Below, in pieces: positions 25,568 through 57,369 of a DNA stretch of 64,000 nucleotides. The notes under the pieces were generated by a model. The model saw only the letters and a list, made by a program, of their open reading frames with translations. It was not told the origin of the DNA and searched no databases. Every line of letters starts with the position of its first letter. Positions within the stretch are counted from its first letter, which is position 1. The stretch spans positions 1,736,001 through 1,800,000 of the forward strand of contig NZ_CP009520.1 in the NCBI RefSeq assembly GCF_000969905.1. Reading direction: 5' to 3'. The stretch is from Methanosarcina vacuolata Z-761 (GTDB lineage: Archaea; Halobacteriota; Methanosarcinia; Methanosarcinales; Methanosarcinaceae). The translations under genes were made by a program, and so were the position numbers.

Positions 25568-25639
25568 AATCAGGAGTGGGAATCGAACTCACATAATTCC
25601 GGGTTGCAGCCGGAAGCATCACCACTCTGCCATCCTGAC
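25568..25639 (-). tRNA. tRNA-Cys (GCA), divergent copy
   Basis: The 72-nt cloverleaf: acceptor GTCAGGA / TCCTGAT (one G1-U72 wobble), D arm GCA/TGC, anticodon stem TCCGG/CCGGA with loop CTGCAAC (anticodon GCA, A37), 5-nt variable loop, T stem GTGAG/CCCAC with loop TTCGATT (an A-C mismatch in the stem), and discriminator U73, the main cysteine identity base. CCA is not encoded. It is clearly different in sequence from the three tRNA-Cys genes at 45-50 kb. The weak first pair and T-stem mismatch leave some doubt about efficiency, but promoter and operators upstream suggest it is used. Confidence 0.85.
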
Positions 25640-29757: not shown

Positions 29758-30147
29758 ATGATAACTGTGGAAACTCCATGTCAGAAAATTGTGTGGGATC
29801 TGGTTCCCGCAATAAGGGCCAGTCTTGCAATCGAACTTGTAAAAAAAGGACAGTCACAGGCAGCGTCTGCAAAGTTGCTGGGGATTGCCCCGTCGGCAGT
29901 TTCCCAGTACATTTCGGGAAAAAGAGGCTACAGGATTGAGTTCCAGGGCGAGACGAAAGAATTGATTGAAAAACTTGCGCAGGATTTGATCGATAACAAC
30001 GTCTCTGACTTTGTAATAAGGGTTTGTGATATCTGTGTAAGTGCCAGAGGAATTGAAAATAAGTGCAGTAGTGGTTGCGGTTCGGAAAAACAAGCTGGTG
30101 ATAATAAGGAAGATGAAGCGAAAAATCAAGAAAAAGCTGAAACATAA
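29758..30147 (+). CDS. HTH transcriptional regulator with Cys-rich C-terminal motif
   Basis: The 129-residue protein has an XRE/lambda-repressor-like helix-turn-helix (about 31-56, GQSQAASAKLLGIAPSAVSQ) and a second part with four cysteines, C90-x2-C93-x9-C103-x3-C107, plus C8 near the N-terminus, followed by a Lys/Glu-rich tail. The cysteines could hold an Fe-S cluster or zinc, or react with sulfur species. It is divergent from nifS and just upstream of cysK, both of which carry the shared operator, making it the best local candidate for the operator-binding protein. That link is inference. GTG 29755 precedes ATG 29758; no ribosome binding site is visible. Confidence 0.8.
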   Translation: MITVETPCQKIVWDLVPAIRASLAIELVKKGQSQAASAKLLGIAPSAVSQYISGKRGYRIEFQGETKELIEKLAQDLIDNNVSDFVIRVCDICVSARGIENKCSSGCGSEKQAGDNKEDEAKNQEKAET

Positions 30148-30224: not shown

Positions 30225-30339
30225 TCAATAACGAAATTTCTCGAGATTCAATAACGAAATTTCTCGAGATTCAATAACGAAATTTCTCGAGATTCGATAA
30301 CGAAATTTCTCGAGATTCGATAACGAAATTTCTCGATAA
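30225..30339. repeat. 23-bp tandem repeat, five units, upstream of cysK
   Basis: Five head-to-tail 23-bp units built on CAATAACGAAATTTCTCGAG (last two with CGATAACG). Each unit includes the palindromic GAAATTTC and CTCGAG. The array ends just before the TATA-like CTATATTTAA and the cysK operator. Confidence 0.95.
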
Positions 30340-30360
30340 CTATATTTAACATAAGGTTAA

Positions 30361-39097: not shown

Positions 39098-40390
39098 TCA
39101 GAGTTTAAGGACTTGTGCTCCTTTCATAGCATTGGAAACCATAGTCTCGATATCCATTTTTCTTTCCTCAAGTACGATAAGGTCGTATTTTGCCCCTATT
39201 TCAGGACGCTCGGGGACAGCAGTACAGCTACCTGCTGATCTATTGGAGATATCGTAGGTCCCAATCTTGCGGGCAATATCCATGATTTCAGTTTTGTCTA
39301 ATGCAATCAAAGGGTGATAAATCGGGATAGCAAGCTGATAGATTTCAGCATACATATTTGCAGCAGTCTGGGAAGCTACCTGTCCCAGGGAAGAACCGGT
39401 GATAATTCCGCTTGCACCTTCTTTTATCATAACCTCATAGGCTTCCCTGTACATCATGCGTTTGCAGAGAAGACAGGTATTTTTTCGGTTGCAAATGTCT
39501 ATAAAAGCCTTGAGATTGGGACCGTGAGGAATTTCATAAGTCGTAAACTGATGTCCTGGAGCCCATTTTTGGAGCTGCCGGATGCAGTCAAAAGCACGCT
39601 CTCTTGCCGCGTCTTCTGCATAAGGAGAGTTACTGCAATAAACAGGTGTAATCATTACGCCACGCTTCATCATAAGCCATGCTGCAACAGGAGAGTCAAG
39701 CCCGCCGGACATTAAAACTACCATACTACCCTGCGTGCCGAGAGGAAGACCCCCTACTCCTTTAAATGTTTTTAGATAGACGTAAGCCAGGTTCTGCCTC
39801 ATTTCAACAAAAATTTCCTTATCAGGAGAACTCAGGTTAACTCTGGGATGTTTTCCTTCTTTTTCCAGTTCATTCCAAACAGCATCCCCACAGTTTTTCC
39901 CTATGTCTGCCGAAGAAAAAGTATGGTTTCCACTTCTTCGGGCTCTGATAGCAAAAGACTCTCCTTCTAAAACAAGATCCCTGGCGAGGGCAGCACATAC
40001 ACTGGCTGCACTCTCAAGAGTAGGCTCTGCTGTCAATGCAGGAGACGTTGAGACTATCCCAAAAACATCAGCTGCGGCTTCGGCTGCACATGGATCCGCA
40101 CTCTCGATAAAGATCCTGCCCCATTCCCGCCGGATCTGAGAATAGGGAATGTTTCTTGAGTCAAGCATTGCGGCAATGTTCCTCATAAGGATTTTCTCGT
40201 ACCAATTTCGGACTCCAGTACTTTTAAGAGCAAGTTCACCATACCGGACTATAACTACTTCTGTCTTAATTCCATACTCGGAACAAGAGAATTCTGAATC
40301 CAAAAAATCCAGTTTTCTTGTATCATTATCTGGAGTGTGTTTATTTTCCTGATGAGTACGAATGCGAGATTCAATTTTTTCTTTAACCAT
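39098..40390 (-). CDS. thiI: tRNA 4-thiouridine synthetase ThiI
   Basis: ThiI makes s4U at position 8 of tRNA. After a charged N-terminal extension of about 40 residues come VVIVRYGELALKSTGVRNWYE, a THUMP domain, and the PP-loop VLMSGGLDSPVAAW. There is no C-terminal rhodanese domain. Cysteines in NTCLLCKRMMYRE (CxxC) and SAGSCTAVPERPE match the methanogen ThiI type, in which conserved cysteines bind an Fe-S cluster and use sulfide directly. Start 40390 is the longest; the family core begins near residue 43. It lies downstream of the marker-16 locus on the same strand after 280 bases. Confidence 0.9.
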   Translation of the reverse strand: MVKEKIESRIRTHQENKHTPDNDTRKLDFLDSEFSCSEYGIKTEVVIVRYGELALKSTGVRNWYEKILMRNIAAMLDSRNIPYSQIRREWGRIFIESADPCAAEAAADVFGIVSTSPALTAEPTLESAASVCAALARDLVLEGESFAIRARRSGNHTFSSADIGKNCGDAVWNELEKEGKHPRVNLSSPDKEIFVEMRQNLAYVYLKTFKGVGGLPLGTQGSMVVLMSGGLDSPVAAWLMMKRGVMITPVYCSNSPYAEDAARERAFDCIRQLQKWAPGHQFTTYEIPHGPNLKAFIDICNRKNTCLLCKRMMYREAYEVMIKEGASGIITGSSLGQVASQTAANMYAEIYQLAIPIYHPLIALDKTEIMDIARKIGTYDISNRSAGSCTAVPERPEIGAKYDLIVLEERKMDIETMVSNAMKGAQVLKL

Positions 40391-40670: not shown

Positions 40671-41915
40671 TTACAGAGGTTCCAGCATCTTTGTAGGTAC
40701 GAATTTATGCTCCAGGATACGGTTCTTAAGCATTGTACAGAGCCTTTCTGCCCGTGCCCTGTCTGACTGCCTCAGAGATATAGGGACAGTTCCTTCAGCC
40801 AGTTCTATAGACCCCAGTCTTGCAAGGAATACTCCTTCAGAACACTGGAGCGTACAGGTTCCGCAGTTGATGCAGAGATCTCTGTTGATAGCGCAATCAT
40901 TTGAAATCGCTTCTGTGGGACAGGTGCGCATTGCGGCACAGTCTGGATGGTGCAGACACCTATCTTTTTCGGCACGAATAACTTTATCAGTGCCTCCCCA
41001 TACATTCCCGTAATTCACTTTTGCATGTGCAGTGCGCCCGTTTACGTCTGCTACTGGTAGCGGGACATTCTGGTCCAGAATTTTTAATCCTGAAAGAATC
41101 TCTTCATCAAGGACAGGGATAGGGACTGCAAGTGAGGTAAGGCATTCAGGGCCGTGTGCTGTTTTCATCCCTCCCATCATGGTCGGGTTCATATCTTTCA
41201 TGTCTGCATATGCTGAGACGTTTGGCTTATCAGGACTGGCCCTGGTCCCTTTTCCCATGATATAACCTGGTGCACCATTTAAGAGAACTCTTGTACCCAC
41301 ACCTATTGACCTGTGAGAAGGATCGTTCTGCAGAGGATTTATTTCACCGCATCCTGATACCGTTGTTTCCGTAAATGGACCTGTCAGGCCTGTCACAGAG
41401 AAGATAGTGTTAATCGTTGGAGAAGCGGGATTTATCAGTGCATTGTAATTTTTAAACGCGAGCCTTGTGGTAATGATCCTGGCAAATTCGATCTCATCAA
41501 GCGTAACCTGGTTTTCATATTGCTTTCCGTGTGCTTCTACCGTCACGTCAATAGTTTTCCCTTTTACAAGGTCCCGGAAAAGATGACCTCCGCCATATTG
41601 TTCATTTGCATGTGCTGTCCCGTTTATCACAAGGTCTACAACCCCGAGCCTTTCGTTCGGACAGGGGCCCGGTTGAGCAGGCACACCGTTTAGCCAGATT
41701 GCATCCGCTCTCTCGAAACTGTTTTTTTCAGCTACCGGCACCATCATAACTGCCATAGTTCCTGACATCACGCCAAAAGTTCCTGTTGTTACTACATCCA
41801 CGTCGTCAACAGTCACCTCTTTTCCATCACGAACCATCAACTTGAGCTCGGCAGCTGTAAGGATTATGGCTTCTTTGTTTGCAATCTTCTGATTTATTTC
41901 TTCAATCGTTTTCAT
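40671..41915 (-). CDS. DUF39 protein with ferredoxin domain (methanogenesis marker 16 type)
   Basis: The 414-residue protein has the DUF39 domain of archaeal homocysteine-biosynthesis proteins (VDVVTTGTFGVMSGTMA, VPAQPGPCPNERLG, SGCGEINPLQNDP, RVLLNGAPGYIMGKGTR) followed by a C-terminal two-cluster ferredoxin part (HPDCAAMRTCPTEAI, LCINCGTCTLQCSEGVF). This combination is the methanogen-restricted marker-16 metalloprotein family. The related DUF39 enzyme makes homocysteine from aspartate semialdehyde and a sulfur donor; marker 16 itself is uncharacterised. Ribosome binding site GGAAG precedes the ATG. It is last in an operon with a small Fe-S protein, a GTPase and an ABC ATPase. Confidence 0.85.
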   Translation of the reverse strand: MKTIEEINQKIANKEAIILTAAELKLMVRDGKEVTVDDVDVVTTGTFGVMSGTMAVMMVPVAEKNSFERADAIWLNGVPAQPGPCPNERLGVVDLVINGTAHANEQYGGGHLFRDLVKGKTIDVTVEAHGKQYENQVTLDEIEFARIITTRLAFKNYNALINPASPTINTIFSVTGLTGPFTETTVSGCGEINPLQNDPSHRSIGVGTRVLLNGAPGYIMGKGTRASPDKPNVSAYADMKDMNPTMMGGMKTAHGPECLTSLAVPIPVLDEEILSGLKILDQNVPLPVADVNGRTAHAKVNYGNVWGGTDKVIRAEKDRCLHHPDCAAMRTCPTEAISNDCAINRDLCINCGTCTLQCSEGVFLARLGSIELAEGTVPISLRQSDRARAERLCTMLKNRILEHKFVPTKMLEPL

Positions 41916-41958
41916 AGTCTTCCAACCTTTTCGATAGTCTCAACATTTTCAATAGTCT

Positions 41959-42627
41959 TCATAATATCCTGATGTCCTCAAGCCTAACGTGAAGTCCAGA
42001 AGGTTTTTGAAAACACATATTCACAAGAGCCGTATGTGCAAGTCCTATCATGCAGTTGCCAGGCAGAAAATATTGACGGGTTCCGAACACAGGAGGTCTC
42101 TTTATAGTACTGGCAATTCCTTCAAAAGCGTGCACATGGTATGCCTGAATATCATGGGCATCTTCTTTTCTGGCAACCATGGGACCTACGGTATGGCATT
42201 CAATTACGCCTGTGACCGGATTTGCGCTCAGAACTCTTAAAGCATGATATACCGGACATCCTGGACCTGCCGGACGGCCAGTTACGAGGTCTCCTTTTTT
42301 GATATCCCATTTTTCTACAAGGTCTGCCCTGAAGGGCACTATAAACTTCCGGGCTGACGGTTCATCCGGAAATGGCAGGAGAACAAAGTCGTATTCTTTT
42401 CCAGCCACATCTACACCGGAGTAAGTGTTTCTTGCCTGAATAGCGAGGTTTTTCAGGCTTACGATTTTTTCCGGACGCACTGTCTTTTCTACGGTGTTTT
42501 CTATACTATAGAATGGACACATATCCAGCTCTGTTAATCCCGTTTCAAGTCTGGAAACAAAGTCCGAACAGGTCTGAGAACCGCAAGCTCCGCAGTTTTT
42601 CCCCGGAGGATTCCAGTTATTCATCAT
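41959..42627 (-). CDS. Fe-S protein with CODH/ACS-gamma-like cluster motif
   Basis: The N-terminal NCGACGSQTCSDFVSRLETGLTELDMCPFY is a PF04060-type [4Fe-4S] motif (CxxC-x4-C-x16-C) as in corrinoid Fe-S proteins. The remaining 180 residues include a barrel-like segment (VPFRADLVEKWDIKKGDLVTGR) and several His and Cys residues (VIECHTVGPMV, AYHVHAF), not recognised as a known enzyme. Start 42627 forms an ATGA overlap with the upstream GTPase stop and has GAGG before it; a longer frame to 42726 would overlap by 100 bases. Translational coupling suggests a complex with the GTPase and marker-16 protein. Confidence 0.8.
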   Translation of the reverse strand: MMNNWNPPGKNCGACGSQTCSDFVSRLETGLTELDMCPFYSIENTVEKTVRPEKIVSLKNLAIQARNTYSGVDVAGKEYDFVLLPFPDEPSARKFIVPFRADLVEKWDIKKGDLVTGRPAGPGCPVYHALRVLSANPVTGVIECHTVGPMVARKEDAHDIQAYHVHAFEGIASTIKRPPVFGTRQYFLPGNCMIGLAHTALVNMCFQKPSGLHVRLEDIRIL

Positions 42628-43331
42628 CAGTCGCCTCTGTATAAGGGTTCTGGCATATCCAGTGGCCTGATGACTCCAAAGTGGTTTTTCCATCCGATTT
42701 CTTTTTTCCCTATACATACGGTACATACACCAAGCGGGGGAGCACCTCTGAGCTTGATCTGATCAGATCCTATATCCGGGTGATCGGCAATCCGCCTCAT
42801 AAGGTATCGTAAACCGGTCCCCTGAACTGCGTTTGTCTCTACAATGTCAATTTTTGGGACAACTTTTCGGATACTTTCTCTGAAAACTTCCTTTTCTGCC
42901 TGAGACACAAGATCAGTCTTGGTAACGACTGCTACATCTGCAAGCGCAAGCATAGGAGCCATTTTGAGAGGGGAGTTTGTTCCTGAGATCGCACTGACGA
43001 CTGCAATTCCAAGTGAGTACGTTGTGTAAGGAGTACACCTGAGACAGAGGCCTGCGCTTTCAATTATCAGGATGTTTCTGGACAGACTTTCAGCCCAGAG
43101 TAACGCATCTTCAAGCACCAGAATTCCCATATGGTCAGGACACACGTCTCCGGAATAGATCTTTTTGACAGGAATCTCGAACTCTTCTGCAAGCTCCTGG
43201 TCTTCTGTCGCGTGTACAACGTCAATCTTCAGGAAGGCAGGAAGCGACCCCTTCGGGAGATTCTTTATAACCTGGCGAATGACAGCGGTTTTTCCTCCGC
43301 TTGGAGGACCGGCGACGATTAAAAGTTTCAT
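42627..43331 (-). CDS. G3E-like (CobW/HypB/UreG) P-loop GTPase
   Basis: The 234-residue protein has Walker A GPPSGGKTAVI at 8-18, IIESAGLCLRCTPY at the switch/Walker B region and the base-specificity motif VTKTDLVS near 145, in the order of the SIMIBI metallochaperone GTPases. A C-terminal GAPPLGVCTVCIGKKEIGW places a CxxC near the end, and LCLRC gives a second CxxC; both could bind metal. Such GTPases insert nickel, cobalt or zinc into client enzymes, so a metal-insertion step in the marker-16 locus is plausible. It begins 6 bases after the ABC ATPase gene. Confidence 0.8.
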   Translation of the reverse strand: MKLLIVAGPPSGGKTAVIRQVIKNLPKGSLPAFLKIDVVHATEDQELAEEFEIPVKKIYSGDVCPDHMGILVLEDALLWAESLSRNILIIESAGLCLRCTPYTTYSLGIAVVSAISGTNSPLKMAPMLALADVAVVTKTDLVSQAEKEVFRESIRKVVPKIDIVETNAVQGTGLRYLMRRIADHPDIGSDQIKLRGAPPLGVCTVCIGKKEIGWKNHFGVIRPLDMPEPLYRGD

Positions 43332-43337
43332 TTTGAC

Positions 43338-44156
43338 TCACACCCTGTTAAACTGGAGGCTTTGTTTGGCTGGGGTCATAAAAACCTTTGAAGAAACGGA
43401 CGAAAAATCAGCTCCCTGTCTGAGTTTTTCTCTTATTTGATGGAGCTTGTCTTCGATTAAAGCAAGATCTGCAATAAGAGGCTGCTCCTCTCCTGTGGAT
43501 TCGATTACAGACGCAACTCCGCCATGTTTCATCACTATACGCCTATCTGCCGTAAGAGCAAGATAAGGATCGTGTGTTACAAGGATTACTGCCTTGTTTC
43601 CCCCCTGGAGAGACTGGATGACGCGGTCTTTAAAAATACCTGCGTTTTCAATCTCATCAAGCAAAAGTATAGGTGTATCGCCGATTACAAGTGCATCTGC
43701 GATCATTAGAGAGCGAGTCTGTCCTCCGGATAACCCGCTCATCCTGCTTTTCAGGCTAATCGATTCACCTGTAAATGTATTTGCAAGCTTTATTGTTTCT
43801 TCAAGCAAGTCTTCTCTACCTGGTTTCCGTGCTCTGATATGCATTAGCAGAAATTCTTCGACTGAAAGATCTGCCAGGCAACGCGTGTTCTGGGTTATCA
43901 GGGCGATGGGTTTGAAGGCTGGCTCTCGTACGAAGGATTCAGGAGGCTCCTGGCCATTGATAAGGATTCGCCTGCCTGTAATACTATCTCCTTGCGCAAG
44001 AGTTTCAATATCATTGATTAAAGCTGACTTTCCTGAGCCAGTTGGGCCTACAATTGCAAGAGTATCCCCTGGCCTTATTTCCAGGGTTTCAAATCCTTCC
44101 TTTTCTCCAAATCGGTTTTTCCCAGATTGAACCATAAGAGTGAATTGCTTTGTCAT
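43338..44156 (-). CDS. ABC-type ATPase of the marker-16 locus
   Basis: A 272-residue stand-alone ATP-binding cassette: Walker A VGPTGSGKSALIND, Q-loop LITQNTRCLADLS, signature LSGGQTRSLM, Walker B PILLLDEIENAGI and H-loop VTHDPYLAL. No membrane partner is encoded nearby, so it is probably soluble and may act as an ATPase in maturation, as AtwA does for methyl-coenzyme M reductase. ATG 44156 lies 1 base from an operator palindrome; a TATA-like TTATAAAG at about 44180-44187 predicts a leaderless or near-leaderless transcript. First gene of the operon. Confidence 0.85.
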   Translation of the reverse strand: MTKQFTLMVQSGKNRFGEKEGFETLEIRPGDTLAIVGPTGSGKSALINDIETLAQGDSITGRRILINGQEPPESFVREPAFKPIALITQNTRCLADLSVEEFLLMHIRARKPGREDLLEETIKLANTFTGESISLKSRMSGLSGGQTRSLMIADALVIGDTPILLLDEIENAGIFKDRVIQSLQGGNKAVILVTHDPYLALTADRRIVMKHGGVASVIESTGEEQPLIADLALIEDKLHQIREKLRQGADFSSVSSKVFMTPAKQSLQFNRV

Positions 44157-44157
44157 A

Positions 44158-44171
44158 TACACAATTGTGAA
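44158..44171. promoter_or_regulatory. Operator palindrome at the ABC ATPase start
   Basis: TACACAATTGTGAA, one mismatch to the operator, lies between the TATA-like box and the ATG, directly abutting the start codon. Binding would block both initiation complex and transcript start of the whole operon. Confidence 0.7.
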
Positions 44172-44398
44172 GATTTGTGCTTTATAACTCTTTCCGCAAA
44201 ATAGCTAAGATTATCCTTAAAAGCCAAGAACTAATTAAATTATGTCCTTTATAGGAAATAGTATCAAAAATGGTGGAAATAATAGATTAATTCAAACCTG
44301 CAATTTTCCCTCTATAAAAATCTCAGGAAATTATTGCAAGATTTATATGAAAAACAGTAATCTGCTCCTCAAAATTGTGCTGAATTGATTCTATGTGC

Positions 44399-45391
44399 TC
44401 AAATATCTTTATTAGGTGTCAGGTCACAGCCAGTACATAGAAGACACATTGTTCGCGATTTATCGACACAGAGCGACTCACGGTCAAGCATATCCTTCAG
44501 CATACCTCCCAGTTTTAAAAGCCGCGCAGTGTCTGGCCTTGTGATCTTCACATTTTTTCTTAGTGGGCTGGGAGAAATAGGTCTTAGAATTGGAATTATG
44601 CATCGGCTTGTAAGGAGCTTGATGCCCTTTTGGACAGTTTCGTCACTTTCCCCAAGGCCAATTATAAAATTCGAAGAAACCCTATTTTTTCCGAAAACAT
44701 TCACTGCACTGTCGAGAGCATCAAGAACATTGTAGAGCGAGAGGTCAGGACAGAAGCGCCTGAAAAGCTCAGGGTCCATAGTTTCAACATTGTATTTTAT
44801 CTCACCTGCGCCTGCAGAATAAAGTTCTTCTGACGAACCTGTCGTGGGATAGACCGAGACACCTACTGGAAGATCGTACTCACGCGTAAGTTGCTTTATG
44901 ATACTTGCCGCCCTCTGGACTTCTGTCTTTGGCGAAACAGCTACACCGCTGGTAAGGGAAATTGCCTTCAGTTCGCCTGTTGCATAAGCTTCCTCAACCA
45001 TCTTCAGAACCTTTGTACTATCCTTTATCCCTCCCTGGATTTTCGGTACCGGACAAAACTGGCAATCATACACACATTTTTCAGATAGCGTAATGTATGC
45101 CTGTTCCGGACAGTGACAAAGCGGACGTTCAAGTGCTCCCCTGGCAACTACATCATTGCCTTTAACAATTACCACATGCTCATCTTCCGGTACTAAACGC
45201 AAAGGAGATGCATCATTAATTGTAAGCCTCACCCTTCGGTTTCCAGACTTCAAAAAGATTGAAGTGCCACCTGCTCCGGGTCCGGCTGTAGCCTTGCTCT
45301 CAAGCTTGTCAGGAAAAAGAGAATCATCTACCTGAACACTTCCTATGCTTAACAGAGCTGCCTTAGTATTCGTATTCAGTTCTTTGTCCAT
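44399..45391 (-). CDS. Radical SAM protein next to the marker-16 operon
   Basis: The 330-residue protein has the radical SAM cluster motif CVYDCQFC (Cx3Cx2C), a glycine-rich SAM region SLTSGVAVS and the barrel strands VGVSVYPTTG, YNVETMDPELF and FIIGLGESDETV. A preceding CHC and a C-terminal CVDKSRTMCLLCTGC suggest one auxiliary Fe-S cluster. About 90 N-terminal residues form a separate beta-rich domain (GAGGTSIFLKSGNRRVRLTIND). The overall look recalls lipoyl- or biotin-synthase-like radical SAM enzymes but I cannot name the reaction. It is upstream of and on the same strand as the ABC ATPase, with its own triple operator. Confidence 0.8.
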   Translation of the reverse strand: MDKELNTNTKAALLSIGSVQVDDSLFPDKLESKATAGPGAGGTSIFLKSGNRRVRLTINDASPLRLVPEDEHVVIVKGNDVVARGALERPLCHCPEQAYITLSEKCVYDCQFCPVPKIQGGIKDSTKVLKMVEEAYATGELKAISLTSGVAVSPKTEVQRAASIIKQLTREYDLPVGVSVYPTTGSSEELYSAGAGEIKYNVETMDPELFRRFCPDLSLYNVLDALDSAVNVFGKNRVSSNFIIGLGESDETVQKGIKLLTSRCIIPILRPISPSPLRKNVKITRPDTARLLKLGGMLKDMLDRESLCVDKSRTMCLLCTGCDLTPNKDI

Positions 45392-45485: not shown

Positions 45486-45558
45486 TTAACAATTGTGAAT
45501 ATAATCGTAAGCTAAATTGATTAACAATTGTGAACTGTGCAATATTAACAATTGTGAA
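45486..45558. promoter_or_regulatory. Triple operator upstream of the radical SAM gene
   Basis: Three copies of TTAACAATTGTGAA (one mismatch to the operator) at 45486-45499, 45521-45534 and 45545-45558. The first two are the ends of a 32-bp perfect direct repeat (45468-45499, 45503-45534) that begins AATCGTAAGC. They are 95-167 bases upstream of the radical SAM ATG. Confidence 0.75.
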
Positions 45559-45806: not shown

Positions 45807-45881
45807 AGGCATATTTTGCCTCAAAGAGCAGGTTTAAATATTAGGAATAAGTATGATGATTTGCTCATTCACAATTGTGAA
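45807..45881 (+). promoter_or_regulatory. tRNA-Cys promoter module
   Basis: In order: dyad AGGCATATTTTGCCT (45807-45821), TATA box TTTAAATATT (45833-45842), operator TTCACAATTGTGAA (45868-45881), then the tRNA 7 bases on. The same layout recurs at 49363-49436 and 48250-48324. The dyad is in an activator position and the palindrome in a repressor position. Confidence 0.8.
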
Positions 45882-45888
45882 TGCCGGT

Positions 45889-45959
45889 GCCAGGGTGGCG
45901 GAAAGGCTACGCAATGGACTGCAGATCCATTTATCCCGGTTCGATTCCAGGCTCTGGCT
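45889..45959 (+). tRNA. tRNA-Cys (GCA), G37 type
   Basis: 71 nt: acceptor GCCAGGG / CTCTGGC (one G-U), D arm GCG/CGC, anticodon stem ATGGA/TCCAT, loop CTGCAGA (GCA, G37), T stem CCCGG/CCAGG with loop TTCGATT and one C-A mismatch, discriminator U73. CCA is not encoded. The gene and its promoter are near-identical to 49363-49514, a clear duplication. G37 allows m1G37, which is known to matter for recognition by SepRS. Confidence 0.95.
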
Positions 45960-49443: not shown

Positions 49444-49514
49444 GCCAGAGTGGCGGAAAGGCTACGCAGTGGACTGCAGATCCATTTATCCCGGTTCGAT
49501 TCCAGGCTCTGGCT
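49444..49514 (+). tRNA. tRNA-Cys (GCA), G37 type
   Basis: 71 nt with a perfect acceptor GCCAGAG/CTCTGGC, anticodon stem GTGGA/TCCAT (one G-U), loop CTGCAGA, T stem CCCGG/CCAGG with the same C-A mismatch as the copy at 45889, discriminator U73. It differs from that copy at only two positions, so the pair is a recent duplication that included the promoter. Confidence 0.95.
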
Positions 49515-49917: not shown

Positions 49918-49989
49918 GCTGAGATGGCGGAAAGGCTACGCGATGGACTGCAACTCCATTATATCCCGGTTCGATTCCGGGTCTCAGCT
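49918..49989 (+). tRNA. tRNA-Cys (GCA), A37 type, upstream of pscS
   Basis: 72 nt with all stems perfect: acceptor GCTGAGA/TCTCAGC, D arm GCG/CGC, anticodon stem ATGGA/TCCAT, loop CTGCAAC (GCA, A37), T stem CCCGG/CCGGG, discriminator U73. Its 3' end is 12 bases before the pscS ATG and there is no terminator between, so tRNA and mRNA are probably one primary transcript, separated by tRNA processing. The A37 loop is shared only with the tRNA at 25568. Confidence 0.95.
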
Positions 49990-50001: not shown

Positions 50002-51384
50002 ATGGATATAAGAACACAGAAAACATTTGAGGCACTTTTTGCCCTTGAAGATATTAGGGAGATCCTTAGACAAAGGCTTCCAAATACCAAAAGCCCAGAA
50101 GAAGAAAACACCATTAAAGAAAGTGTAAATAAGGTCAGAAAATTTCTGGATGATATCGAAAATGATGCCGGAACCCCGGAAGTAAGAAAAATAGCTGATA
50201 ATATTGATATTCGGTCCAGAGAAGAAACAAACATCAATATACAGCCAATCCAGGCAGCAGGAAGGCTTACACCCGAAGCACGAAAAGCTCTCATAGCATA
50301 TGGCGACGGCTATTCCACCTGTGATGCCTGCCGCAAACCTTTCAGGCTTGATAAAATAAGCAGTCCACCTATTGCTCCCTTTCATGAACAACTTGCAAGC
50401 TTCGTTAACATGGATGTGGCTCGAGTAGTGCCAGGTGCAAGGAGAGGGTTCCAGGCAGTGACATCGTCTCTGGTCAACAAAGGTGATTCCGTAATAGTCT
50501 CGGCTCTTGCTCATTATACAGAATTCCTAGCAGTAGAAGGAGCAGGAGGAATAGTTCGAGAAGTTCCCTTAAACGAACACAATATTGTGACTGCAGATGC
50601 TACTGCTGAGAAAATTGAAGCGGTTAAGCAGGAAACAGGTAAATTACCTGTACTGGTAATGATCGACCACTTTGATTACCAGTATGCAAACGAGCACGAT
50701 GTAAAAGGCATTGCAAAAGTTGCCCACCAGTATGACATTCCTTTCCTGTACAACGGGGCATATACTGTTGGCGTCAGGCCGGTTGATGGAAAAGATATCG
50801 GCGCGGATTTTGTTGTAGGTTCAGGCCACAAAAGCATGGCATCCCCTGCACCTTCTGGAGTACTGGCAACAACTGAAGAATGGGCTCCCAGGATATTCCG
50901 CACAACTCAGATGACTGGCGATCTAACCAAACGCAAATTTGGAGTAAAAGAAGTCGAGATGCTTGGCTGCACACTGATGGGTTCAACTTTGCTAGGCATG
51001 ATGGCTTCATTCCCTACAGTTAAGGAGAGAGTAAAGAATTGGGAAGACGAATTGAAAAAATCGAATTATCTGATCGATGGCTTGCTCGCTATTGAAGGCA
51101 GTAAAGTCGTCTCAGAGTATCCACGCAAACATACCCTTTCCAAAGTTGACACCATCAATAGCTTCGATCTTGTAGCGCAGAAAAATAAACGCAGAGGTTT
51201 CTTCCTTTCAGACGAACTTTCAAAAAAGGGTATTGTCGGAGAATTTGCAGGAGCCACAAGAGTCTGGAAACTTAATACATACGGGCTTTCGTGGGAGAAA
51301 GTTCGCTATGTCGTAGACACATTCCAGGAAATCGCTGAAAAATATGACCTTCAGGTAAACAAGGAGAAGAATTCCAATGACTAA
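50002..51384 (+). CDS. pscS: Sep-tRNA:Cys-tRNA synthase (SepCysS)
   Basis: SepCysS converts O-phosphoseryl-tRNA-Cys to cysteinyl-tRNA-Cys with PLP and a sulfur donor; it is the second step of the tRNA-dependent cysteine pathway of methanogens. The protein has the PLP lysine K277 in [14 protein letters not shown], the catalytic cysteines Cys107 and Cys110 ([10 protein letters not shown]) and Cys323 (EMLGCTLMG), all three known to be needed. At 460 residues it has an N-terminal helical extension of about 80 residues compared with shorter archaeal homologues. AGGGG precedes the ATG. It overlaps metY by 8 bases and follows its substrate tRNA gene. SepRS is not in the window. Confidence 0.95.
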
Positions 51385-54462: not shown

Positions 54463-55812
54463 TCAAAGAGGCCCTGCGTATGTACTCATAACGTCTTCCA
54501 CTAAAGTGAGCCCTCCACTGAACCCTGCGTAATTGTGTTCAAGTATCACGCGGTTATATGAAGGGAATGAAACCGTCAAATGTAGGGCATTAAACTCCGG
54601 ACCGGATATAGGAGTTTCAAGAGAACTTGCCAGCAGGAACAGGAAATTTCTGTCTTTTAAATTTTCCCGAATCCTGTATGCATCCACTTCATATATTATT
54701 TCAGGCCAGGCAGGGGTTTCAAGGTCGGTTGTCAATTCCTCGTTTATCAGTTTACGGGCTTCTTCAGGTGGATTATCTGTTATCTGAACAATATCAGGTA
54801 GATAACCCATCTCGTTTGCAAGGTATTTTGTAATGCTTACAGCCGAATTACTGTCAGCGACAACCGCAAAATAAGGATGCGGCCTGGTGATCAGGAGTAT
54901 ATCGCCAACAAATTCTGCAAATCTGTAGGCTCGCTTTTCCTCTCTGGCAATCAGGTCTTCAATGACATCGGCTGAAACATCTAACCTTTCTCCTATGACC
55001 CTCAGGAATTCCGAGGTTTGTTTTGGTCCTATTGGTACCCCTGGGAAGGAGATATAAGGAGTATCGAACTTTTCTTCGAGTTTCTCTGCCGTTTTATGCC
55101 CTATCCAGCTTGAGAGGACAATATTATATTCAGCAGCCGGAATTTTTTTCAGGTTCTCAAGTGCTTCAAATTCTCCTACAATCAGATTTGCCTTCAAGCC
55201 TATTTTTTCAAGCAGGGTTTTTATCTCCCTTGCTTCGCCCTTCCAGAATATGTGCTGTGAAGGCACTATACCGAAAACGTTTACCAATCCTTTTTCTTTC
55301 GGAGCCTTTTCAAGGAGCTGGTCGATCACAGCGTCGAAAAAGTACTCGTAGCCGTCGTATGATGTCCCTGCAAAGCCTGAAGTATTTACATGTATGATTG
55401 GAACCTCAGGATTCTTTTCTTTATATCTTCTGATAACGGCTCCCACATCATCTCCTATAAGTGAAGGGACACAGCCAGAGATGACTGCAAATACTTCTCC
55501 ATTTACAAGTTCTACCGTTGATTCAATAAGCGCTTCAAGTTTTTTCTCGCCGCCGAAAATTACATGTTCCTCAACTAAAGAGGAACACGGGGTGCTTGTT
55601 CCACCGTAAGGGCCTCCAGCGTTCTGGCCACCACCGTAAAATTGACCAAAAAGCTGCCCTATTCCACATCCTGCCCCGGAATGGAGTATGGGAACAACTC
55701 CAAATATCCCTACTGCAGTTGAATAAGCTCCTGCAAGTGCGCAGGAGTAACGTGGTGCTTCAATAGCACCTGATATAACATTATTTGTCTCTAAAGGTTC
55801 ACTTATTCCCAT
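54463..55812 (-). CDS. Nitrogenase-like component 1, beta-type subunit
   Basis: The 449-residue protein belongs to the nitrogenase component 1 superfamily. Cys24, Cys49 (SGAGCGIGQ) and Cys114 (VISGCVPSLIGDDV) match the three P-cluster ligands of NifK. A long Gly-rich loop (QFYGGGQNAGGPYGGTSTP) follows Cys49 and is unlike NifK. It starts 12 bases after the alpha-type gene, so they are one operon. Similarity to NifK is distant; candidates are a methylthio-alkane reductase MarK-like subunit or an uncharacterised nitrogenase-like reductase. The reductase (NifH-like) is not in the window. Confidence 0.75.
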   Translation of the reverse strand: MGISEPLETNNVISGAIEAPRYSCALAGAYSTAVGIFGVVPILHSGAGCGIGQLFGQFYGGGQNAGGPYGGTSTPCSSLVEEHVIFGGEKKLEALIESTVELVNGEVFAVISGCVPSLIGDDVGAVIRRYKEKNPEVPIIHVNTSGFAGTSYDGYEYFFDAVIDQLLEKAPKEKGLVNVFGIVPSQHIFWKGEAREIKTLLEKIGLKANLIVGEFEALENLKKIPAAEYNIVLSSWIGHKTAEKLEEKFDTPYISFPGVPIGPKQTSEFLRVIGERLDVSADVIEDLIAREEKRAYRFAEFVGDILLITRPHPYFAVVADSNSAVSITKYLANEMGYLPDIVQITDNPPEEARKLINEELTTDLETPAWPEIIYEVDAYRIRENLKDRNFLFLLASSLETPISGPEFNALHLTVSFPSYNRVILEHNYAGFSGGLTLVEDVMSTYAGPL

Positions 55813-55824
55813 AATTACACCTAT

Positions 55825-57369
55825 TTACTCCTCTGCTTTAAGATAATACAGTGAATTTGGCTGTTTGTACCACCAGTCTTTATATGTACTCAGCGTCTTT
55901 TCCTTCATAGTCCGCTGATATGAATGGCTTTTTAGTGACTGCAAAAGGAAGTTTCCAAATGCAATCGCTCCCGTATAGCCGCTCTGGGTACTCCAGGGAT
56001 GTGCATCGGACCTCAAGGCATGCACCCTTGTTACACCCTTGTCGCGCTTGAATGCCCCTCCCTGGAACGGGCAGGTCATTGCGATATCGGGATTTCTATG
56101 GTTTGTTATATGTGTCTGTTCTGCGGCCTGGAAGGTATTTACCAGAATGTCAAAGTCCCCCATCTGGGCGAGCAATTTTTCAAGGTCCTTAAGGATGAGG
56201 TTGTCAAAGTCCTGGCACATTGCAGCTGAGGATTTAAGTCCAATTTCATCAAAGTACGGGACCTGAGCCAGAAGTCTTCCCTGCCCAAGTGCACCCAGCA
56301 CTTCTACTTTCTCTCCATTACCTTTGAAATTTTCAAATTCCTGCCTGATCGCCTTGAGTTTTGGAAGCCATTTTTCGTGTTCTTCTTTGATCAGGGCTTC
56401 TATTTCCCTTTCTTTTCCAGTGTGCCTCCCGATTTCCCTCAGCCACTCATCGGTGTGAGCAACTCCCATTGGTGAGGGATAGAGGAAATAAGGAACTCCA
56501 TATTCTTGCTTAAGTCCACGTGCAAGATAATCAGTGTAAGTCGGGCACAGGGGTGCAGTAACTGCAGCTTCGGAAAGTTGTTCAAACTGCTCCACAGAGG
56601 CGAATTCAGGGATGAAGTTAACTCTAAGACCGACTTTTCCCAGCAGGCGCTTTATTTCCAGTCTGTCCTGCCAGGTGTAGGAGAGCATACTGGCTACATT
56701 TATCAGATCTTTCTGTTTCTTTTCCGGTTTTTTGACGAGGTATTTTAAGACTGCATGCCAGAAGGCATCATAACCTGTCTGGACAAGTTTTGATCGTGAG
56801 CCTTCACAGTGAATAGGGACTATTGTTGCTTTTATTTCGGGCTGGACCTGTGAGACAACCCCTTCTATGTCCTCTCCGATTATTCCTGAAGTACAGGACG
56901 TAAGTATAAAGATCGCTTTAGGATTGTACCGTCTCTCGGCTTCCTTTATCGCTTCCCTGAGCTTTTCACCGGCACCGTAGACCACATCTCTTTCGCCGAG
57001 ATTTGTTGTCATCCAGTGGAGGTCGTAATTTGCAGGACGGCCAAGTTCAACAGGCACGTGTCTGTAGAGTTCACGGTAGCCGAGTGCTGCAGACGAGCAG
57101 CCGACAGGTGCATGATATATAGCTACAGCGTCACGGATTGTTCCGATCCTTACTGAAAGATAGAAGTTCAGAACACAACCACTTGACTGCTGAAAATTCC
57201 GTTCTCTTTGCCTCAGGCAGCCTGAACGGGCTTCTTTTGCAAGATCGCTTGCTTTTCCATACCAGACGTTAATACCGTTTGCCCTCTGTTCCCTGTTGGG
57301 ACATGTAGCCCGTGATAGGTCGATTCTATCCTCGATAAGTTCATTTTCAGTAAGTTCTGTTCCTGACAT
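55825..57369 (-). CDS. Nitrogenase-like component 1, alpha-type subunit
   Basis: The 514-residue protein keeps the NifD layout: P-cluster ligands Cys65 (SSGCVLN), Cys91 (APVGCSSA) and Cys159 (LTSCTSGIIGED), a cofactor Cys275 in APLCPTYTDYLARGLKQEYG, and His457 in AHPWSTQSGYTGAIAF where NifD has the cofactor His. Thus a FeMo-co-like or NifB-co-like cluster could be held. NifD residues around the N2 site (for example the RAP/HSW context) differ, so N2 reduction is not implied. Sulfur genes nearby (two MetY, methanethiol-forming lyase) make a methylthio-alkane reductase-like role attractive but unproven. Confidence 0.8.
   Translation of the reverse strand: MSGTELTENELIEDRIDLSRATCPNREQRANGINVWYGKASDLAKEARSGCLRQRERNFQQSSGCVLNFYLSVRIGTIRDAVAIYHAPVGCSSAALGYRELYRHVPVELGRPANYDLHWMTTNLGERDVVYGAGEKLREAIKEAERRYNPKAIFILTSCTSGIIGEDIEGVVSQVQPEIKATIVPIHCEGSRSKLVQTGYDAFWHAVLKYLVKKPEKKQKDLINVASMLSYTWQDRLEIKRLLGKVGLRVNFIPEFASVEQFEQLSEAAVTAPLCPTYTDYLARGLKQEYGVPYFLYPSPMGVAHTDEWLREIGRHTGKEREIEALIKEEHEKWLPKLKAIRQEFENFKGNGEKVEVLGALGQGRLLAQVPYFDEIGLKSSAAMCQDFDNLILKDLEKLLAQMGDFDILVNTFQAAEQTHITNHRNPDIAMTCPFQGGAFKRDKGVTRVHALRSDAHPWSTQSGYTGAIAFGNFLLQSLKSHSYQRTMKEKTLSTYKDWWYKQPNSLYYLKAEE

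Follow-up and report, generated by a model that had tools for sequence, protein, structure and literature searches.

Coenzyme M (CoM) and coenzyme B (CoB) are essential for biological methane formation. In Methanosarcina acetivorans, genetic evidence identified MA3299 (ComF), a protein of the COG1900/TIGR03287 family, as the main CoM synthase (Chadwick et al. 2025, PMC12068725). Its deletion slowed growth without CoM and caused CoM auxotrophy without sulfide, and the conversion of sulfoacetaldehyde into CoM is supported for other family members by that study and the work cited there. The same study noted that CoM genes are frequently accompanied by those of an ATPase, a Ni-binding GTPase and a COG2000 iron-sulfur (Fe-S) protein, stating the role of these proteins to be unknown, and it described the making of the CoB thiol in the same terms. 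Here, we analyzed a 64,000-nucleotide stretch of the Methanosarcina vacuolata Z-761 genome (hereafter, the window), in which five genes on the minus strand (45391-40671), all open and intact, encode a radical S-adenosylmethionine (SAM) protein, a soluble ATP-binding cassette (ABC)-type ATPase, a G3E GTPase, a COG2000-type Fe-S protein and a marker-16 protein of the ComF family, termed MMP16-B. Based on gene content, homology, synteny, operators, paralogy and phylogeny, this locus is probably a sulfur-regulated CoM-synthase isozyme set accompanied by a putative sulfur-chemistry radical SAM enzyme.

The gene of MMP16-B (COG1900d/ComF; 40671-41915, minus strand, 414 amino acids) encodes a COG1900 domain and a two-cluster ferredoxin domain, and its product matches TIGR03287 with 511 bits against a cut-off of 364 and PF01837 with 336 bits. 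Seven of its cysteines (C320, C326, C332, C348, C351, C354 and C358) are invariant. MMP16-B thus shares with MA3299 the NCBIfam family, both domains and the genus; it differs in being a paralog, linked to the genes of the ATPase, the GTPase and the COG2000 protein (hereafter, the trio) and placed under an operator of cysteine genes. The genome holds three COG1900 genes, namely that of L-ASST, which serves homocysteine, and those of MMP16 copies A and B, so a single-copy marker-16 gene is ruled out. Copy A (C2:2,956,738-2,958,054) lies 1.18 Mb from the window copy, beside cysteate synthase and comDE in the arrangement of MA3297-MA3299, and is the ortholog of the proven M. acetivorans enzyme. 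Copies A and B are 47% identical, and MMP16-B carries S-G-C-G where copy A carries C-G-C-G. Copy B, copy A and L-ASST also occur all together in four other genomes (G197, G198, G200 and G201).

In an MMP16 tree rooted on L-ASST, copy A grouped with Methanosarcinaceae sequences (95), apart from copy B, which joined the other Methanosarcina copies B (100) and then a Methanomicrobiales-type sequence, that of G169 (88), within the group of enzymes whose genes stand in CoM operons. The order names of such genomes were inferred from kinship codes and from named loci with identical sequence; for example, L146 (Methanocalculus chunghsingensis) is identical to the G193 locus. The gene order ATPase-GTPase-COG2000-MMP16 is contiguous in 22 of the 197 sampled genomes of the phylum, and cysteate synthase and comDE follow the four-gene block in most of the loci that we fetched. 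The first four genes of the Methanomicrobiales CoM operon have the same order as the window block and are about 47-74% identical to it. The Methanomicrobiales relatives of MMP16-B retain the linkage to cysteate synthase and comDE, whereas the window block has neither attached, their counterparts in this genome lying beside copy A. Since copy B groups with Methanomicrobiales CoM-operon enzymes, the block looks like a transferred fragment, and the simplest history would be that part of a CoM operon was transferred horizontally from a Methanomicrobiales-like donor and then captured under the cysteine operator. Separately, locus L126, filed as a contig of a Nitrospirae metagenome-assembled genome, carries the Methanosarcina five-gene locus with 84-93% identity, probably through a binning error.

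The promoters of the locus contain palindromes of the TTCACAATTGTGAA type, which place it in a cysteine operator group. We counted 12 occurrences of ACAATTGT in the window, where 1.6 were expected, and none of 100 shuffles reached this number. Allowing at most one mismatch, the 14-mer TTCACAATTGTGAA has 16 sites in the whole 4.56-Mb genome and none in the reversed control, and 14 of these sites crowd into 40 kb (C2:1,761,682-1,801,898). They precede or flank four tRNA-Cys genes and the genes of SepCysS, cysK, a NifS/IscS-type desulfurase, OAH sulfhydrylase/metX and larE, in agreement with the shared control with cysteine genes that the original prediction had proposed. Operators before both transcription units of the locus, three of them before the radical SAM gene, had likewise been predicted and are present. 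Operator 1 of the radical SAM gene, TTAACAATTGTGAA, is located at 45545-45558 beside the TATA-like sequence CTTTTTA and is conserved in Methanosarcina relatives; operator 2 (45521-45534) lies 24 bp from it, and operator 3 (45486-45499), the nearest to the gene, falls within a 35-bp duplication. Comparing the window with nine Methanosarcina relatives, we found operators 1 and 2 at the 24-bp spacing directly after CTTTTTA in nearly all of them, and the duplication holding operator 3 in the window and L125 only. The ATPase operator, TACACAATTGTGAA (44158-44171), overlaps the start codon and lies downstream of a conserved TTATAAA box. The position of the operators just downstream of TATA-like boxes fits repression, and we infer that this is suggested as their mode of action. 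The operator is not restricted to Methanosarcina: TTMACAATTGTKAA is present in 50 of the 197 genomes, far above the reversed control, and the operator also occurs in Methanomicrobiales, Methanothrix and other lineages. The copy A locus of the same genome has no cysteine operator.

A candidate for the cognate regulator is a helix-turn-helix (HTH) protein of 129-130 amino acids with four conserved cysteines (PCQ, CxIC and C), encoded in the window between the desulfurase and cysK genes (29758-30147, plus strand, 129 amino acids). A second copy is found at G000:C2:1315897-1316286, beside a second cysK. Homologs have an operator-like site at most 200 bp upstream in 28 of 30 loci across the phylum, mostly at 23-56 bp, which indicates that the HTH protein is likely the cognate, autoregulated factor of the cysteine operator. 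In several methanogen lineages, it probably acts as the master regulator of a cysteine regulon. Our literature search on a regulator of tRNA-Cys/SepCysS in methanogens found nothing relevant. Several Methanomicrobiales CoM operons, which lack the cysteine operator, have a different HTH gene nearby (cluster c13).

Other features of the operator group were also observed. A tRNA-Cys (GCA) gene (45889-45959, plus strand) is the divergent neighbor of the radical SAM gene and has its own operator at 45868-45881; tRNA-Cys genes adjoining the radical SAM-B gene recur in other orders. Four tRNA-Cys genes are located within 25 kb, this one and those at 25568-25639 (minus strand), 49444-49514 and 49918-49989 (both plus strand), most of them near an operator, and SepCysS is found at 50002. 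A direct repeat of approximately 24 bp (cgaaatttctcgagattcaataa) has several copies at 30232-30345, upstream of the cysK operator. Just past the window, two operator sites 29 bp apart (G000:C2:1801856-1801898) lie downstream of a NifH-like gene, with no target identified.

The four genes downstream of the radical SAM gene are packed as had been noted originally, with a 6-base gap between the ATPase and GTPase genes, an ATGA overlap between the GTPase and COG2000 genes, and a 43-base gap before the MMP16-B gene. Profile matches bore out the Fe-S, GTPase and ATPase content. The ATPase gene (43338-44162, minus strand; PF00005, 60 bits) encodes 274 amino acids from a GTG at 44162 or 272 from an ATG at 44156, the latter being the more likely start. 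The window operon has no permease or binding-protein gene beside it, so the ATPase does not class as part of an ABC transporter; its conserved partners are the GTPase, the COG2000 protein and CoM genes. The GTPase gene (42627-43331, minus strand, 234 amino acids) encodes a protein that belongs to the G3E group by its cobW/HypB/UreG G domain (PF02492, 55 bits) and its conserved Cys and His residues; the motifs CPDH, AGLCxRC and a C-terminal CTxC are invariant in 15 sequences, as expected of a metal-binding G3E GTPase. It shares the P-loop G3E domain, conserved Cys/His and CxxC motifs with HypB, UreG and CobW but has different partners, and its 61.4 bits against the HypB family (TIGR00073) lie below the cut-off of 121.2. 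The COG2000 gene (41959-42627, minus strand) encodes an N-terminal PF04060 [4Fe-4S] domain, which is also found in the corrinoid Fe-S protein. Its reading frame can be extended to 42726 inside the GTPase gene; we took the internal ATG as the start because homologs begin there, and by this comparison the longer version appears to be a frame extension.

The radical SAM gene (paralog B; 44399-45391, minus strand, 330 amino acids; PF04055) encodes a CX3CX2C motif at residues 106-113 and a C-terminal CX2CX2C motif at residues 316-322. C94, the CX3CX2C triad, C214, C316, C319 and C322 are invariant in 38 sequences, and C94, C214 and the C-terminal triad would be enough cysteines for a putative second Fe-S cluster, of the auxiliary kind that serves as sulfur donor in sulfur-inserting radical SAM enzymes. 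In its AlphaFold model (mean predicted local distance difference test score, pLDDT, 92.6), the closest structures are lipoyl synthase (Z 20.5, root-mean-square deviation 3.2 over 231 residues), HydE (Z 19.1) and BioB (Z 19.0), the three being indistinguishable within the error of Z, and sequence profiles agree with a fold of this type. Radical SAM-B thus shares both the fold and the CX3CX2C radical SAM barrel with LipA/LipS2, BioB and HydE. It scores under every curated cut-off (56 against 270 bits for LipS2; 32 against 225 bits for BioB), and it differs from these enzymes in an extra N-terminal beta-rich domain and in its three-cysteine motif, which is C-terminal, whereas LipA carries an N-terminal CX4CX5C.

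Within the window's own phylum, to which the search was confined and outside which class I methanogens (Methanobacteriales and Methanococcales) lie, the radical SAM family occurs in 101 of the 197 genomes, distant matches counted, including many methanogens and methanotrophs; several MMP16-bearing genomes have no member. A quick FastTree analysis separated a cysteine-regulon clade of 47 rows (Methanosarcina paralog B, Methanomicrobiales and Methanothrix; support 93), in which the Methanosarcina sequences are nested among those of Methanomicrobiales, nearest to UBA207. An operator or a tRNA-Cys gene lies just upstream in 39 of these 47 rows against 1 of the remaining 51, with a p value of 3e-18 that is only indicative since the rows are related. 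The housekeeping paralog of this genome (C2:354,243) has no operator. In Methanocellales-like and Methanomicrobiales-like genomes, housekeeping copies are found with methanogenesis marker 11, aks/leu-type chain-elongation genes and sometimes a thiamine pyrophosphate (TPP) enzyme (L114, L116 and L117), a neighborhood that hints at CoB; the aks/leu-type genes score below specific cut-offs, leaving Aks and Leu ambiguous.

As a separate observation, L114 (372-9837), L117 and L118 share a cluster in which marker 11 and the housekeeping radical SAM copy are grouped with aks/leu-type genes, a DUF7714/XcbA-like protein and a TPP enzyme, with no radical SAM open reading frame called in the L118 version. 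By its gene content, this cluster is a candidate CoB gene cluster.

Among 31 Methanosarcina genomes, nine carry both the CoM operon and radical SAM-B, and the two are always adjacent (two-sided Fisher p = 1.3e-4, for genomes that are not independent and without correction for kinship); in G228, the adjacent radical SAM copy is partial. Additionally, two genomes of a distant family (G011 and G047) have a radical SAM gene of the same family approximately 1.5 kb from the trio. Based on these arrangements, a functional link between the radical SAM gene and the CoM operon is plausible. In Methanomicrobiales, the two usually lie apart, so the radical SAM gene was rejected there as a fixed part of the CoM operon; in that order and in Methanothrix, it is found beside tRNA-Cys and SepCysS genes. 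This distribution supports an alternative reading, in which the radical SAM gene has no functional connection with the CoM operon and belongs to a tRNA-Cys/cysteine island, acting in tRNA thio-modification or in cysteine or sulfur-donor chemistry, and the adjacency reflects gene crowding. The alternative also gains from the Methanosarcina genomes in which one unit occurs without the other (two with the operon only and two with radical SAM-B only, among the 13 that have either); the constant adjacency in the nine genomes and the arrangement in G011 and G047 speak against it. We regard it as a substantial possibility, somewhat short of even. Of the five-gene set proposed in the original prediction, the four-gene block stands as an ordinary operon of Methanomicrobiales, and the radical SAM gene is loosely tied to it. 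Co-occurrence in other methanogens, on whose absence that prediction would have fallen, was looked at and does not refute it.

Under the reading that we favor, a sulfur-regulated CoM-synthase isozyme set, the locus would be a cysteine- or sulfur-regulated module that finishes thiol cofactors. MMP16-B would act as a second CoM synthase, forming CoM from sulfoacetaldehyde, reduced sulfur and electrons. The ABC-type ATPase and the HypB-like GTPase would probably spend ATP and GTP on maturing or reductively activating a metal or Fe-S centre, with low-potential electrons probably coming from the COG2000 [4Fe-4S] protein; maturation or reductive activation is our best guess for the trio, held with low confidence. 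Once part of the Methanomicrobiales CoM operon had reached some Methanosarcina, cysteate synthase and comDE would have been lost, or never brought along, and MMP16-B would be fed with sulfoacetaldehyde by the resident enzymes encoded with copy A. The block may then have come under the operator/repressor system of cysteine supply, and would be expressed during a shortage of sulfide or cysteine, when M. acetivorans cannot do without MMP16. The radical SAM gene forms its own transcription unit within the operator group and may contribute sulfur or cysteine chemistry for a cofactor. The role in sulfur incorporation that had been proposed originally fits this scheme; its opposition to methanogenesis does not, as CoM is itself a methanogenesis cofactor.

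Several observations, together with the genomes that carry one unit without the other, weigh against this reading. The ATPase operator is intact in four of seven loci (the window and its three nearest relatives, L123-L125) and degenerate in the other three (L126, L129 and L130). The Methanomicrobiales CoM operons lack the cysteine operator, from which the regulatory link would be recent. The GTPase of the block is present in 11 of the 31 Methanosarcina genomes and absent in 20, and most Methanosarcina rely on a copy A that works without the trio, which makes the trio dispensable for the MMP16 family. Moreover, the trio may not serve MMP16 directly, since two genomes have it with no MMP16 found: in G056 (L085), the trio adjoins cysteate synthase and comDE, and CoM, if made there, would have to be finished by another enzyme or reaction; in G183 (L086), neither MMP16 nor cysteate synthase nor comDE is nearby. 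Finally, the second domain of the COG2000 protein is conserved, and its fold was not obtained, as the AlphaFold model, built with seven near-identical sequences, reached a pLDDT of 37.6 and was not used. By these distributions, the trio appears tied to CoM and sulfur genes, not strictly to MMP16.

MMP16-B might also make a thiol other than CoM from an aldehyde, either 7-mercaptoheptanoate for CoB or homocysteine. The presence of a second copy in addition to an intact CoM synthase gene set points to divergence, MMP16-B has no cysteate synthase or comDE gene as a neighbor, and the CoB thiol step is unassigned, the COG1900 family having been suggested for it (PMC12068725). We consider this alternative unlikely, given that the nearest relatives of MMP16-B are encoded inside CoM operons, that its score lies well above the MMP16 cut-off and, for homocysteine, that a separate L-ASST is already in the genome. 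CoB enters in another way through the radical SAM family, which could be the sulfur-inserting enzyme of CoB (7-mercaptoheptanoyl) synthesis, or a close partner of it, with paralog B as the copy induced by cysteine shortage. Our literature search on this family in CoB synthesis found nothing, and we hold the proposal to be doubtful; if true, the thiol steps of CoM and CoB would both be served by an inducible gene set at this locus.

According to the original prediction, the locus is an undescribed assembly machine, in which the radical SAM protein, the ATPase and the GTPase build a metallocentre on the marker-16 protein. HypB-like GTPases and soluble ABC ATPases are typical of metallocentre maturation, and MMP16 has ferredoxin-type cysteines. 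However, we found nothing to support marker-16 as a cluster-carrying substrate of the other four proteins: most Methanosarcina have MMP16 without the trio, the trio occurs in G056 and G183 with no MMP16 found, and MMP16 has been assigned an enzymatic role of its own (PMC12068725), all of which makes the proposal improbable. Equally hard to credit is a trio that serves sulfonate or CoM uptake, with the ATPase working with an SsuA-like binding protein, or sulfur supply by handing sulfur on, rather than the last step: the trio has an SsuA-like gene close by in L083, L084, L085 and L094, and the trio operon of the Methanocellales-like L094 (8289-11616) includes an IscS-type cysteine desulfurase gene between its GTPase and COG2000 genes, but neither the window nor most Methanomicrobiales CoM operons have an SsuA-like or permease gene beside the trio, and, to our knowledge, known ABC importers do not include such GTPase and Fe-S partners.

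The locus is not undescribed in kind, as had been claimed, because its main enzyme family is a coenzyme M synthase family and the clustering of the trio with CoM genes has been reported (PMC12068725). As far as our searches go, three elements are new: a second, apparently transferred, cysteine-operator-controlled CoM synthase set in Methanosarcina; a cysteine operator shared across lineages, together with its candidate regulator; and an uncharacterised radical SAM family comprising a housekeeping and a cysteine-regulon paralog. The locus offers a natural experiment, with a probable second CoM synthase and the trio, under a cysteine operator with a candidate regulator, in a genus that has genetic tools and in which most species lack both, and it points to a specific radical SAM family, so far unannotated, that is connected with sulfur supply in several methanogen lineages.

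Downstream of the five-gene locus, a ThiI gene is located at 39098-40390. Gene sizes had led us to suspect nitrogenase-like genes near radical SAM-B, and these were rejected upon identification as genes of MetX, OAH sulfhydrylase and SepCysS. Elsewhere, at 54463-57369 of the window and at G000:C2:1800422-1801336, we identified a NifH-like protein and two proteins of the nitrogenase alpha/NifE-like kind, none of which reaches the specific cut-offs; they lie near a second OAH sulfhydrylase. This set could be a nitrogenase-like, sulfur-scavenging reductase of the methylthio-alkane reductase type.

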